23,457 bases of DNA from a virus, in IMG/VR virus record IMGVR_UViG_3300025107_000015, positions 1-23,457 of that record. The stretch is one strand, 5' to 3'. Positions 1 through 19,882 of this stretch are shown here, one piece after another. Position 1 is the stretch's first letter, and each line of letters begins with the position of its first letter. A model generated the notes under the pieces. That model ran no database searches and was not told the origin of the DNA. It saw only the letters and a list, made by a program, of their open reading frames with translations. A program made the translations under genes and the position numbers.

Positions 1-530
1 AGTGCCGTGCGTAGCGCGTTAAGCGAGGACAGCGGATTCGCAGCATGCAACCGGTCAATCAGTGAGCTGTGTGCTTCTGTCGCAGCTGCCGTAGCCAGTG
101 AGCCATGCTGGGATATCGTTTCAGCAAGTTGCACAGGCAACGTGCGGTTGAAAAATGGCTCGCCAGGTGTGGATTCGACAAACTCAATGCTGACAGTCGC
201 CTGGTCAACATTGTCGGCATCATGGTGGACGGCGTAGCGCGCGACTTGCGCTGTCTTGAAAGACCCAAAGACAGGATGAACCAGCTCGCCACTACCAGGT
301 AGATCAAGTTGACCTAAAAACCACTGTAGCTGTATTTCATAATCAACACCATAAAATACCGCCTCGACGCTGATATGCCGCGCGCCGCGCCCCATATCTT
401 CAACATCAGCGCCGTCCCTGTACGGACAACTATGCTCGGCAAGGGCGCGATCCGCCGTATCGTCCGTTTTAACGATATCGAAAACGGTGCCGCGAAATGA
501 AGCATCTTGTAGTGTTTGCGCCCAAGCCAT
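1..530 (-). CDS. Mu gpN-like DNA circularisation / tail protein, N-terminal part (cut by window edge)
   Basis: The reading frame is open from an ATG at 530 down to base 1 with no stop, giving about 176 residues. It starts MAWAQTLQDASFRGTVFDIV and contains the stretch GRGARHISVEAVFYG followed by GSGELVHPVFGSF. This is the pattern of the DNA-circularisation N-terminal domain of Mu gpN (gp43), a structural protein of the contractile tail and baseplate needed for virion infectivity. Its place downstream of the tape measure fits Mu tail order. No clear Shine-Dalgarno sequence precedes the ATG, and the bases just upstream belong to the control region of the oppositely oriented DUF2513 gene. That is consistent with an insertion having displaced the original leader. 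The C-terminal part is outside the window. The family call is confident; the exact function is inferred from Mu. Confidence 0.85.
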   Translation of the reverse strand, partial: MAWAQTLQDASFRGTVFDIVKTDDTADRALAEHSCPYRDGADVEDMGRGARHISVEAVFYGVDYEIQLQWFLGQLDLPGSGELVHPVFGSFKTAQVARYAVHHDADNVDQATVSIEFVESTPGEPFFNRTLPVQLAETISQHGSLATAAATEAHSSLIDRLHAANPLSSLNALRTA

Positions 531-565
531 ATCAGGTAAACTCTGCAAAAAACAAAGGGACCAAT

Positions 566-922
566 ATGAAACGTGATTTCGACCTCATTCGTAAAATATT
601 GCTAGACATACAGGCGATGCCAGCAAATAGCCAGCCCGTAACAATTTCATATTCGGGAGAATATGAGCAGGCAGTCGTCAATGAACATTTAGTGCTTTTG
701 ATTGATGCCGAACTTATTGTTGGCAGGCCATTGCGCACCATGTCAGGTCTCGCGCAGGTTGTAGTGCGCGGCCTGACATGGCAAGGCCATGACTTCATCC
801 AGGCTGCCGAAAAGGATTCAATTTGGAACAAGGCCAAAGAGACTATTCTAAGCAAAGGCGGGGCAATCACTTTTGATGTCCTGAAGGAGCTACTGAAACG
901 TTTGGCACTTGCGGCCGTATGA
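566..922 (+). CDS. DUF2513 family protein, probable moron
   Basis: This 118-residue protein begins MKRDFDLIRKILLDIQAMPA and contains ISYSGEYEQAVVNEHLVLLIDAEL-type text broken by a GLTWQGHDFIQAA motif, the signature of DUF2513. That small helical, winged-helix-like family is common in prophages and its function is unknown. I chose the ATG at 566 because AAAGGGA lies just upstream at 554-560; an in-frame ATG at 497 would overlap gpN and has no ribosome site. It is one of very few plus-strand genes in the window. It sits between the 72-residue gene and gpN, and looks more A+T-rich than the tail genes around it. A weak promoter may lie at 507-535 (TTGTAG, 17 bases, TATCAG). Orientation and position suggest expression in the lysogen, independent of the late operon. 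Its last 56 bases overlap tail-to-tail with the gene at 867-1085. Confidence 0.85.
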   Translation: MKRDFDLIRKILLDIQAMPANSQPVTISYSGEYEQAVVNEHLVLLIDAELIVGRPLRTMSGLAQVVVRGLTWQGHDFIQAAEKDSIWNKAKETILSKGGAITFDVLKELLKRLALAAV

Positions 923-1085
923 CTTCCTTAAGTGATTGCGCGCAATTGAAATAGACCATTGCACCATGTTCAATAAGCAGCTTCCCCATAGGGTTAGCTT
1001 CAATCTCTGCATCAAAAAATGCACGACGGGATTTTGCTTCCCATTCGGATATTAATTGATTCAATGAGGTATTTATTGTGTCCAT
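867..1085 (-). CDS. Hypothetical late phage protein, 72 aa
   Basis: This 72-residue ORF begins MDTINTSLNQLISEWEAKSR and contains IEHGAMVYFNCAQSLKEVI. It is mostly helical and polar, with one Cys in the FNCA motif. Small proteins with this general shape (an N-terminal Leu/Trp helix, then a G-x-M-x-Y-F-N-C segment) are familiar to me from other Mu-like phages, but no function is known. It is the first gene after the conserved late-promoter element at 1119-1143, with 39 bases between the dyad and the ATG and no obvious Shine-Dalgarno sequence. Its 3' end overlaps the 3' end of the DUF2513 gene by 56 bases on the other strand. The position behind a late promoter makes a real late gene likely. Confidence 0.65.
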   Translation of the reverse strand: MDTINTSLNQLISEWEAKSRRAFFDAEIEANPMGKLLIEHGAMVYFNCAQSLKEVIRPQVPNVSVAPSGHQK

Positions 1086-1118
1086 GCACGCAGTTTACAC
1101 GCGTACATGGGTGGTCTT

Positions 1119-1143
1119 AAATAACGGAAAGCGTTCCGGGGTA
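1119..1143 (-). promoter_or_regulatory. Putative late promoter, copy A (Mu PP-like)
   Basis: On the minus strand TACCCCGGAAC (1143-1133) overlaps a perfect dyad CGGAA-CGCT-TTCCG (1138-1125), followed at once by TTATTT (1124-1119) as a candidate -10 box. It begins 5 bases after the tape-measure stop codon and 39 bases separate the dyad from the next ATG at 1085. The same element occurs at 9639-9649 and 17891-17901. It probably drives the distal tail genes under the Mor-family activator; activator binding is inferred. Confidence 0.6.
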
Positions 1144-8480: not shown

Positions 8481-9593
8481 TTACGCGCTTACGGCAGTCA
8501 GCGCAGCCTCGTAAGTCGTCTTGTTGGCCGACTGATATGCCAGCGCCTTGTGGTGCAGTTCCAGACGCTCGCCGTCTACGGCATATCCGGCAGGCGCTGC
8601 AAAATCAACCATGCCTTGTGATGCGTTTTCAGCACCGGCCGCTACACCGAAGTTCACCAGCTTTGGCATGTCGGTCAACATGGTTTTCAACGCATCGACC
8701 AACGGTTTTTTGGTATCACCTTCGCCGAACTCGACCACTTGCTCACCTGCGCCCAATTGATCAAGCGAGGCTACGATCACATCCTTGTGCGCAGGGAGTA
8801 ACGTGCCGGCCTTCGCCAGACCCTCTGCAAAGCTGGAATTTTCGGCGTGACGCGTGGCATCTTTGGTGGCTTTGTCGCGGACAGCTGCATCGGCCAATTG
8901 TTTTTTCATCTGGGCGTTTTCTGCCTCCAGCGCGGCTTTTTCTTCGAGTGTCACTTGGGATGATCCTTTCTCAATAAATGCCGGAGCGGGTACTTCGGCG
9001 GTTTGTGATTTCTTCAATTCATCCTGGGCGGATTGCTCAAGATTTTTAACGGTGTAACCAGGAACAGCCGTATCGGCATCGGCCTGACCGAACTTACCGA
9101 GGATCCAGTCGCGCATGCTGCGCCACAGACCCGCGTTGTCCACGTCGTCCCATTCGGCGAACTCGACGATGCCTTGCTCGGCATCTGCAAATGAGGGATT
9201 GCGCAATCCCTTCACGCTGGGCGGCATCGCACCGAGAAAACCCACATGGCGCAGGTAATACACACCGGGGACAGGATTGCTGGGGGAATCTGGGGCATAA
9301 AAGGAGGCAGAGATTTTCTTGAACGAACCCTTGCCGATCATCTCAGCAAAGGCTGTATCCACCTGGGTGGGGTTCGCTTCGAGTGCGCCATCGGAAAAAC
9401 TCAGCGCGCCGACCCAGCCGTAAGCGGGATCGTCATGCTTAGGGTGACCACATACCAGCGGCGCTTCATGCTTAGCCGGATCGTAGGCGGCAGCAGTTGC
9501 CGACAGGTCGGTTTCGGAAAACGACAATGCAGCACCACTCATCGCGGTGTGCTTGCCGGGCTTGAAGATCTGGATTGGTTTATTCGTTTTCAT
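8481..9593 (-). CDS. Head maturation protease with C-terminal scaffold (Mu gpI/Z-like)
   Basis: I chose the ATG at 9593 (MKTNKPIQIFKPGKHTAMSG), since it lies 37 bases after a conserved promoter dyad; an upstream in-frame start at 9740 would run through that promoter. The 370-residue product has the Mu protease I motifs: an N-terminal PGKHTAMSGAALSFSETDL, then APLVCGHPKHDDPAYGWVGAL, and KISASFYAPDSPSNPVPGVYYLRHVGFLG. The second half (about 230-340) is a charged coiled coil, EEKAALEAENAQMKKQLADA, typical of an assembly scaffold. In Mu an in-frame internal product of this gene (Z) is the scaffold; here Met candidates exist within the coiled coil. The enzyme would cleave the scaffold and capsid arms. 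No Shine-Dalgarno sequence is visible before the ATG. Confidence 0.9.
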   Translation of the reverse strand: MKTNKPIQIFKPGKHTAMSGAALSFSETDLSATAAAYDPAKHEAPLVCGHPKHDDPAYGWVGALSFSDGALEANPTQVDTAFAEMIGKGSFKKISASFYAPDSPSNPVPGVYYLRHVGFLGAMPPSVKGLRNPSFADAEQGIVEFAEWDDVDNAGLWRSMRDWILGKFGQADADTAVPGYTVKNLEQSAQDELKKSQTAEVPAPAFIEKGSSQVTLEEKAALEAENAQMKKQLADAAVRDKATKDATRHAENSSFAEGLAKAGTLLPAHKDVIVASLDQLGAGEQVVEFGEGDTKKPLVDALKTMLTDMPKLVNFGVAAGAENASQGMVDFAAPAGYAVDGERLELHHKALAYQSANKTTYEAALTAVSA

Positions 9594-9624
9594 GACCGCA
9601 TTTTGAGCGGCACGAAGCGGGGTG

Positions 9625-9649
9625 TTAAGACGGATTGGGTTCCGGGGTA
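9625..9649 (-). promoter_or_regulatory. Putative late promoter, copy B (Mu PI-like)
   Basis: The minus strand has TACCCCGGAAC (9649-9639) overlapping the dyad CGGAA-CCCA-ATCCG (9644-9631, one mismatch). TCTTAA (9630-9625) follows directly as a candidate -10 box. The dyad is 37 bases from the protease ATG. This is the position of the Mu PI late promoter. The gap 9594-9858 otherwise holds the hairpin at 9824-9841, a small dyad TTAAC-TATAC-GTTAA at 9760-9774, and no gene. Confidence 0.62.
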
Positions 9650-16959: not shown

Positions 16960-17192
16960 GGTTTTACCTCCGCATTCGCAGACATGCCGTAACGGAGCGA
17001 GAGCAGCTTGGAAAGGGTTGACGATGCACCGATACTAGCCAGATAAATCAACCAGATTTCAGACGTTGCAGTGTTCATATAAACCATATAGCCAAAGGCG
17101 ATGGTCGCGGCGCAGTAAGCGATATTTGCCCATAGCTTAGTGTGCGACAGCATGCCGGTACCGGAATCGGTAATCAGGTCAGTGATCGTCAT
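16956..17192 (-). CDS. Holin-like protein (DUF2644-type)
   Basis: This 78-residue protein has two membrane segments, WANIAYCAATIAFGYMVYM (residues about 22-40) and IWLIYLASIGASSTLSKLL (about 47-65), and short polar ends. Size and topology match the DUF2644 holin-like proteins of Mu-like phages, which would release or activate the endolysin by permeabilising the inner membrane. It is coupled by four-base overlaps to the endolysin upstream and the i-spanin downstream, forming a compact lysis cassette. The call rests on topology and position. Confidence 0.8.
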   Translation of the reverse strand: MTITDLITDSGTGMLSHTKLWANIAYCAATIAFGYMVYMNTATSEIWLIYLASIGASSTLSKLLSLRYGMSANAEVKP

Positions 17193-17638
17193 ACCAACCC
17201 ATCCAGATAGCGAGTTTTACGACCCGGTTCAAACACAGCGGTCAATACCTGATTGCGCAGCGGCCGACCTGCAACATCCAGCGACAGATGCACCCAGGTG
17301 CCTTCGCAGATCATCTGGTCGAACTTCAGACCGGAGGCCAGTAATGTCTGGCAAATCTCTTTGGGCGTGCCGTAGCCAGGGCAGATGAAATCTACTGCCA
17401 GTCCCAGCACATGCTGGCTATTTTTTGCGCCGCCTATCAGGGTATTGAGCTTGGTGCAGCGGAAGCCACTGCTGATCTGAATGGGGTTGCCGAGCAACTG
17501 GCGCACTTCCTCCAATAGGTTAGCGATGAGTTCCAGACAAGCACGTTGCGGTGTATTCGGCGTGTTATCTATTCTGGCGCGTACCGCTTGCTGCGAATGC
17601 GTCAGTTCTTCCAGCGTGAAATGTGGGGATAGGTTCAT
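17189..17638 (-). CDS. Endolysin, M15-family D,D-/L,D-peptidase
   Basis: This 149-residue protein begins MNLSPHFTLEELTHSQQAVR and carries the M15 (VanY/M15_3) zinc peptidase motifs: SSGFRC-x-x-LN (residues 56-65), S74-x-H76-x-x-G-x-A-x-D83 in NSQHVLGLAVDF, and W115-V-H117. His76, Asp83 and His117 would bind zinc. It cleaves peptidoglycan stem peptides at lysis. There is no signal peptide, so export needs the holin. It is coupled by four bases to the genes on both sides. The family call is firm. Confidence 0.93.
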   Translation of the reverse strand: MNLSPHFTLEELTHSQQAVRARIDNTPNTPQRACLELIANLLEEVRQLLGNPIQISSGFRCTKLNTLIGGAKNSQHVLGLAVDFICPGYGTPKEICQTLLASGLKFDQMICEGTWVHLSLDVAGRPLRNQVLTAVFEPGRKTRYLDGLV

Positions 17639-17844
17639 GGATTTCCTTTGAATTTGGCTGGAATAATGGGAAGAAATCGAACCAACGTACCTGCGCCGAT
17701 CGCAGCAATGCAGCGCCCGAACTCCTTGGGCGGATGGGCGATATGCAGACGTGCCGTGGTGCTGGTGAGTTTTGTGCAGACGCGGTCATCCTGATCGACA
17801 AAGCGGTCGCCGGGATTCAGGTCATAGAATTTGGTTGTTTGCAT
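17635..17844 (-). CDS. Hypothetical first gene of the lysis operon, 69 aa
   Basis: This 69-residue protein begins MQTTKFYDLNPGDRFVDQDD, followed by VCTKLTSTTARLHIAHPPKE and a hydrophobic end TLVRFLPIIPAKFKGNP. It looks like a small β-barrel: the L-x-P-G-D-R-F start is common in short phage proteins of unknown role. It is the first gene after late promoter C, with 38 bases from the dyad to the ATG and no visible Shine-Dalgarno sequence. It overlaps the endolysin start by four bases. No function can be given. Confidence 0.7.
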   Translation of the reverse strand: MQTTKFYDLNPGDRFVDQDDRVCTKLTSTTARLHIAHPPKEFGRCIAAIGAGTLVRFLPIIPAKFKGNP

Positions 17845-17876
17845 GACGCGTAATGTACGCGTGCGCGCGAGGCGGG

Positions 17877-17901
17877 ATAAGACAGAAGGGGTTCCGGGGT
17901 A
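17877..17901 (-). promoter_or_regulatory. Putative late promoter, copy C (Mu Plys-like)
   Basis: The minus strand has TACCCCGGAAC (17901-17891) overlapping the dyad CGGAA-CCCC-TTCTG (17896-17883, one mismatch). TCTTAT (17882-17877) follows as a -10 candidate, and the dyad is 38 bases from the next ATG. It lies between the upstream terminator and the lysis operon, the position of Plys in Mu. Confidence 0.65.
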
Positions 17902-18562: not shown

Positions 18563-18958
18563 TTAAAACAACCCGACCTGCATGTCATCTTCAATTTCGC
18601 TATTCAGAATGTCACGGATGTGCCGGGTAGTGAACTCGTATTTCAGCGCCAGGGTATTTTGTGGCGTCCCTTCGGCATATTCGCGGCGAATTTCACGATA
18701 GATCAACACCCGAGCCGCTTTTTCACAGCGTGCAATTTCCAGTTGGTCGCCACCATATTCCGCCACCAGAGCCGTAAAGGCTTCCATCCCGATCAGATAC
18801 AGCAAGCGGTGATCCAGTTGCACAGTCATCGGAATGTAAATCGGCGTTCCGCCGCCATGCATCTTGACCAGCTTCAGCGTAGCCGTCAGGCCGATGGCCT
18901 TGGCCAGCCATTGCATAGAGGGCGGCAATAGGTGCAAATCAGATTCGTCCAGATTCAT
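18563..18958 (-). CDS. mor: Mor-family transcription activator
   Basis: This 131-residue protein has the Mor/C family features: an N-terminal dimerisation region with QWLAKAIGLTATLKLVKMHG and GTPIYIPMTVQ (residues 16-46), and a C-terminal helix-turn-helix AEGTPQNTLALKYEFTTRHI (about 95-114). In Mu, Mor activates the middle promoter and its relative C activates the four late promoters. Only one such gene is visible here, so it may do both jobs and is the best candidate to bind the three dyads at 1125-1138, 9631-9644 and 17883-17896. Its start overlaps the GemA-like gene by four bases. Confidence 0.92.
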   Translation of the reverse strand: MNLDESDLHLLPPSMQWLAKAIGLTATLKLVKMHGGGTPIYIPMTVQLDHRLLYLIGMEAFTALVAEYGGDQLEIARCEKAARVLIYREIRREYAEGTPQNTLALKYEFTTRHIRDILNSEIEDDMQVGLF

Positions 18959-19816: not shown

Positions 19817-19882
19817 ATTCGTCCCTGTTTCTGTCCTGTTATTACAATTAAATTTGGGTTCTGAAAAATACCGGAGCCCTCT

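Follow-up and report, generated by a model that had tools for sequence, protein, structure and literature searches.

Three copies of a short dyad element in the viral contig analysed here are, with high confidence, the operators of late promoters, and we find it reasonably probable, judging from comparative sequence analysis, that a Mor-type promoter and a leaderless start, combined with the regulatory logic of T4 gene e, explain all three. The window (the whole stretch of DNA that was analysed, 23,457 bp, which is the entire viral record) carries genes that match those of Mu-type (B3-like) transposable phages. Its protease matches B3 and also Mu-like phages, those of Klebsiella and Rhodobacter among them, and a tape measure gene (phrog_794) is also present. 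The genes that bear on the three elements are as follows:

867-1085, minus strand: 72-aa ORF with no family, first gene of the site 1 transcript; its ATG is the predicted mRNA 5′ end
8481-9593, minus strand: head maturation protease (phrog_976), first gene of the site 2 transcript
17189-17638, minus strand: endolysin (phrog_894)
17635-17844, minus strand: 69-aa ORF, first gene of the site 3 transcript, overlapping the endolysin start
18563-18958, minus strand: Mor-family activator (PF08765, phrog_836), the sole such gene and the candidate activator of all three promoters

Exact copies of the 11-mer TACCCCGGAAC occur on the minus strand only, at 1133-1143, 9639-9649 and 17891-17901, and no fourth copy was found in the 23,457-bp record, as the original prediction had stated for the elements at 1119-1143, 9625-9649 and 17877-17901. 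Its description of the dyad CGGAA-N4-TTCCG, perfect at one site and with one mismatch at each of the other two, likewise agrees with the sequence. The dyad centres lie 44-47 bp upstream of the first ATG of each late block at the three sites:

1125-1138, minus strand: site 1 operator dyad, perfect, with a TACCCC lead-in to 1143; centre at -46.5 from the predicted start
9631-9644, minus strand: site 2 operator dyad, one mismatch; centre at -44.5
17883-17896, minus strand: site 3 operator dyad, one mismatch; centre at -45.5

A slightly relaxed pattern of the element matched 14 stretches among 2.9 million viral contigs, and in the close relatives among these matches the copies sit at the same late-gene starts; two such relatives (IMGVR_UViG_3300045994_000413 and 3300045995_000500) have all three sites, at the corresponding late genes. 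A pattern search of relatives of this kind had been suggested at the outset. The proposal of a three-promoter late regulon with an operator of its own is supported. The sites had been described as preceding the distal tail, protease and lysis blocks; site 1, however, does not stand directly before a tail gene here, its first gene being the 72-aa ORF. Downstream of site 1 lie this ORF, a convergent DUF2513 gene (497-922, plus strand) and then a baseplate-hub gene that starts near 530 (MAWAQTLQDA...), so that the DUF2513 gene and the 72-aa ORF on the minus strand (window positions 497-1085) separate site 1 from the hub gene. In a relative (L014) the site 1 promoter stands directly before the hub gene with nothing between them, and because of this arrangement the DUF2513/72-aa pair looks like a moron insertion that retained the promoter and the start-codon hairpin.

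We located the -10 elements from protease-upstream regions of the viral collection and of B3, YPCBV-1, RcapMu, RR1-B and phiSHP3, with positional counts taken over 108 non-redundant relatives with protease homologues, nothing being selected. A NANNNT hexamer ends 6 nt before the protease start in 43 of the 108 and 7 nt before it in 23 (66 together), while every other offset holds 0-9 of 108. Dyads that form 5 or more pairs out of 6 are centred 42-45 bp upstream of the ATG in 36 of 108, against about one per position elsewhere. Dyad sequences among the relatives are diverse (GCGGAA-N4-TTCCGC, ACCGAA-N4-TTCGGT, TTTAA-N6-TTAAA, and TTTCGG-N4-CCGAAA in B3) and the spacing is constant; the same geometry accompanies operators of unrelated sequence and recurs at other late operons of the same phages. 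The -10 lies 22-24 bp past the 16-bp element in the relatives and at sites 2 and 3, and 26 bp past it at site 1. The window promoters read TTAAGA-N17-TAAACT-N6-ATG at site 1, TTATCC-N17-TACATT-N7-ATG at site 3 and, in minus-strand order, CCGGAACCCAATCCGT - CTTAACACCCCGCTTCGTGCCGCT - CAAAAT - GCGGTC - ATG at site 2, where the pair TTAACA-N17-CAAAAT was also recovered independently:

1092-1097, minus strand: site 1 predicted -10, TAAACT, 6 bp before the ATG and 2 bp farther from the dyad than usual
9623-9628, minus strand: site 2 -35 region, TTAACA, N17 to the -10; it overlaps the TCTTAA earlier proposed as a -10
9600-9605, minus strand: site 2 predicted -10, CAAAAT, 6 bp before the ATG
17852-17857, minus strand: site 3 predicted -10, TACATT, 7 bp before the ATG

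The original prediction had instead put the -10 right after the dyad (TTATTT, TCTTAA and TCTTAT), which would give a leader of about 25 nt. Hexamers of this kind do exist at all three sites, but relatives with other operators have TATCGC, TTATCT or AGACCG there, a NANNNT 26-33 nt before the start is found in only 4-8 of 108 per offset as against the counts at 6 and 7, and the implied leader lacks a Shine-Dalgarno sequence; we consider this placement very improbable. The hexamers are not conserved as a -10 and belong to the -35 region, because both the dyad-to -10 distance and the position of the dyad centre, near -44, agree with what is known of the Mor site in Mu Pm. A dyad adjoining the -10 had also been called unusual by comparison with Mu; with the true -10 ending 6-7 bp before the ATG, the dyad falls near -45, much where Mor binds Mu Pm, and the oddity disappears. 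Separately, we considered whether the element's right half is the conserved late -35 of Mu and dropped this equation, the distance to the -10 being about 5 bp different.

The protease promoters among the 69 class A relatives have C or G as the first base of the -10 in 67 of 69, which makes this hexamer weak, and other late promoters of the same phages have a -10 that mostly starts with T (TAACCT, TACACT); going by these sequences, the protease promoters may be kept weak. In B3 (NC_006548.1, 19857-19893) the annotated protease start, a CTG at 19857, lies upstream of the predicted -10, and by the conserved pattern the start would be the ATG at about 19890.

Could the dyads be intrinsic terminators of the upstream block, or sites for a regulator other than Mor? 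The site 1 dyad does score as terminator-like, and RcapMu and RR1-B have long dyads at the same places, followed by T runs. However, sites 2 and 3 gave no terminator-like match on the minus strand, the dyad keeps a fixed distance to the -10 and the ATG across diverse sequences, the copies are tied to late-operon starts, and both geometry and position are those of the Mor site (PMC4390567), all of which leaves this alternative improbable. The long dyads of RcapMu (13949 and 22370) and of RR1-B (upstream of 11615, 19069 and 26149) are identical ahead of the late blocks of these phages, and may serve as terminators and activator sites both.

A sigma-70 polymerase is expected to initiate at or next to the A of the ATG when the -10 ends 6-7 bp upstream of it. 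Because this is the distance seen here, a start at that A is predicted; it is quite likely that transcription of these promoters starts at or next to the ATG, and the late mRNA of the first genes is probably leaderless. The start codon is ATG in 69 of 69 class A protease genes. A Shine-Dalgarno pairing of -4.4 kcal/mol is reached by 3% of 69 starts as compared with 48% of 535 other (control) ORFs (p 4e-13); window sites 1, 2 and 3 score -1.9, -1.4 and +0.5 kcal/mol, and many of their neighbours are strong. The original prediction missed this predicted absence of a leader, as well as a second inverted repeat at the start codon.

This second repeat encloses the -10 in most relatives, with a right arm that ends at or covers the ATG, and at all three window sites its 5′ arm lies upstream of the predicted late start:

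1082-1110, minus strand: site 1 hairpin, CATGTACGC / GCGTGCATG (in full CATGTACGC GTGTAAACT GCGTGCATG); start codon (1085-1083) within the right arm; -18.3 kcal/mol, z -4.7
9589-9616, minus strand: site 2 hairpin, TTCGTG-CCGC / GCGG-T-CATGAA (in full TTCGTG-CCGC TCAAAAT GCGG-T-CATGAA), start codon (9593-9591) paired; -13.9 kcal/mol, z -3.6
17841-17868, minus strand: site 3 hairpin, ACGCGTA-CAT-TACGCGT; -12.4 kcal/mol, z -1.8, weak against shuffles

Predicted folds of read-through RNA have the start codon all or mostly paired at the three window sites, whereas in the leaderless RNA it is free. Across the class A relatives overall the shift is modest, with a start-codon median unpaired value of 0.45 as against 0.54-0.62 in controls. 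The arms differ from promoter to promoter within one phage, yet match within each promoter: the class A stem score is 6.16 for own arms and 4.91 (sd 0.13) for permuted ones (0 of 400 permutations), the mean folding energy is -11.31 against -8.97 (sd 0.31; 0 of 2000), and a restricted permutation of arms, in which the grouping was coarse, also gave 0 of 2000. The 69 class A promoters have 42 distinct right arms, and it is thus the complementarity that is kept and not the sequence. Stems of at least 5 pairs reach the start codon in 30 of 69, the extremes being AACATGCCACCC/GGGTGGCATGTT (L076) and CGCATGCCGCC/GGCGGCATGCG (L069). The L014 orthologue of site 1 is CATGCGCGC ... GCGCGCATG where the window has CATGTACGC ... 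GCGTGCATG; going from L014 to the window, one G-C pair becomes A-T, with both of its bases changed, and one C-G pair becomes T-G. On balance we lean slightly towards a hairpin that would act as a translational gate.

A further set of relatives has the -10 about 22-36 nt before the start, which makes them variants with a leader. In these variants the stretch from the -10 to -1 holds the left arm, and the right arm again ends within a few nt of the start codon or is placed over the Shine-Dalgarno sequence, as in YPCBV-1 (GGCCTCC ACGAACAC GGGAGGCC GCC ATG). Read-through RNA of these variants, whose start site is buried in the predicted fold, folds mostly at about -20 to -32 kcal/mol and RNA from the predicted +1 at -1 to -3, and matched arms beat permuted ones (0 of 2000, several of the sequences being related). 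The repeat thus keeps to the start codon and not to the promoter, a behaviour in favour of a translational role. In four of the leader variants (L099, L103, L097 and L110), the region upstream of the protease has an extra inverted repeat between operator and -10, for example GGGCC...GGCCC.

The Mu oligonucleotides for late promoters extend 20 nt past the start (PMC4461284), and we placed the starts of Mu lys and PI from the published oligonucleotides (PMC4461284 Table 1). Upstream of 10480 and 18056 in Mu, the lys and I promoters lie inside inverted repeats. The left arm of each ends near the start so placed; the right arm lies over the start codon in lys and adjoins the Shine-Dalgarno sequence in I. 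At lys, GCCATCA at about -6 to +1 pairs with TGATGGC over the ATG; at PI, read-through RNA folds at -14.7 as against -1.5 for RNA from its start. With these starts, both late transcripts lose the 5′ arm of the repeat. The start-codon hairpin rule does not extend to Mu PP, since that promoter is situated within gene N, about 300 bp ahead of gene P.

The promoter and operator might be as described and the second repeat still act on DNA, as a cruciform that helps -10 melting or as the site of another protein. The enclosure of the -10 in most relatives fits such a role, and wobble counts do not clearly favour RNA: stems hold 12 G.U and 6 A.C (7.2 and 5.0 when permuted), with no excess at stem ends, and the difference between sense and antisense folding energies departs from that of shuffles, a comparison confounded by strong Watson-Crick stems. 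Against it, arms that differ between promoters of one phage offer no common protein site, the right arm in the leader variants stays at the start codon or Shine-Dalgarno sequence even when up to about 30 bp from the -10, and in Mu lys and PI it is the left arm that adjoins +1, with the right arm over the start region. We regard this DNA-level role as unlikely.

PF08765 genes number one in the window, in agreement with the single Mor-family gene reported from the sequence, one in the 38-kb close relative, one in B3 and two in Mu (Mor and C). B3 has the operator TTTCG-N6-CGAAA before its holin, protease and tape-measure genes, a placement that accords with the three late clusters found by RNA-seq in the B3-like phage Fc02 (PMC9936078). 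Mor probably drives the late genes directly; the single PF08765 gene and the B3 operators support the earlier suggestion of a Mor-family late activator, and Mor is likely to be that putative activator. Mor recognition helices differ among phages with different operators, in a comparison that comprises few operator-helix pairs.

In the mechanism we propose, a Mor dimer would bind the dyad at about -45 and recruit sigma-70 RNA polymerase to a weak -10, which, ending 6-7 bp before the start codon, would direct transcription from or next to the A of the ATG and yield a leaderless first-gene mRNA. In read-through RNA from upstream, the repeat would fold against or over the start codon and block initiation, while the late promoter's own transcript would begin inside the hairpin, without the 5′ arm, and be translated. 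The gain is clear for the lysis block, because early genes lie upstream of it on the same strand; it is less obvious at the other blocks, which receive from upstream a transcript that is late as well. More tentatively, at somewhat less than even chances, late promoters would be built inside start-site hairpins throughout the Mu-type transposable phages, Mu itself among them, with the first late protein of each block translated only from late-promoter transcripts and the B3-like branch leaderless. If this is true, one short stretch of DNA would control the first genes of the lysis, protease and distal tail blocks twice, through the Mor activator and through a hairpin that only the right transcript escapes. 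A design of the T4 type would then extend to a large unrelated phage group, leaderless translation would be predicted for the late stage of infection in Gram-negative hosts, and a directly testable function would fall to the start regions of Mu lys and I.

Among known systems, the Mor site of Mu Pm is a 16-bp element with 5-bp arms, centred at -43.5 in place of a -35 (PMC4390567). The sites described here share with it a dyad of about 16 bp near that position (-44.5 to -46.5), a -10, a weak or absent -35 and an activator (here a candidate) of the PF08765 family; however, Pm drives gene C and the present sites would drive late operons directly, the operator sequence is another, and a leaderless start and an embedding second inverted repeat are predicted here. 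The C-dependent promoters of Mu (Plys, PI, PP and Pmom; PMC4461284) occupy the same genomic places for the lysis and protease blocks, and lys and PI also lie within start-site hairpins, but the Mu C site has another sequence and position, the lys and I mRNAs have a short leader, and Mu uses a separate second activator. The window falls outside this C-dependent class: its operator differs from the Mu C site, as had been predicted and as sequence comparison bears out, and the window and its 38-kb relative have one Mor-family gene each. A literature search that covered a minority of the subscription journals gave no published case, for Mu-like phages, of late mRNA without a leader or of late promoters gated by a hairpin, and older Mu work may already have noted the lys or I repeats. 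Leaderless mRNAs such as those of mycobacteria (PMC4633059) similarly have the start codon at the (here predicted) 5′ end and no Shine-Dalgarno sequence, but the leaderless starts proposed here belong to the genes that open the late blocks, and elsewhere in these phages a Shine-Dalgarno sequence is often present. In T4, the long early RNAs of e, soc, 49 and I-TevI hide the start codon, and a late promoter inside the hairpin gives RNA without the 5′ arm (PMC3014915, PMC2988022). The present sites resemble this e-type arrangement in their self-complementary arms around the start and in a 5′ arm upstream of the predicted late start; T4 late promoters, in contrast, need gp55 and give mRNAs with a leader, whereas here the promoter is of the Mor type and most relatives are predicted to have no leader.
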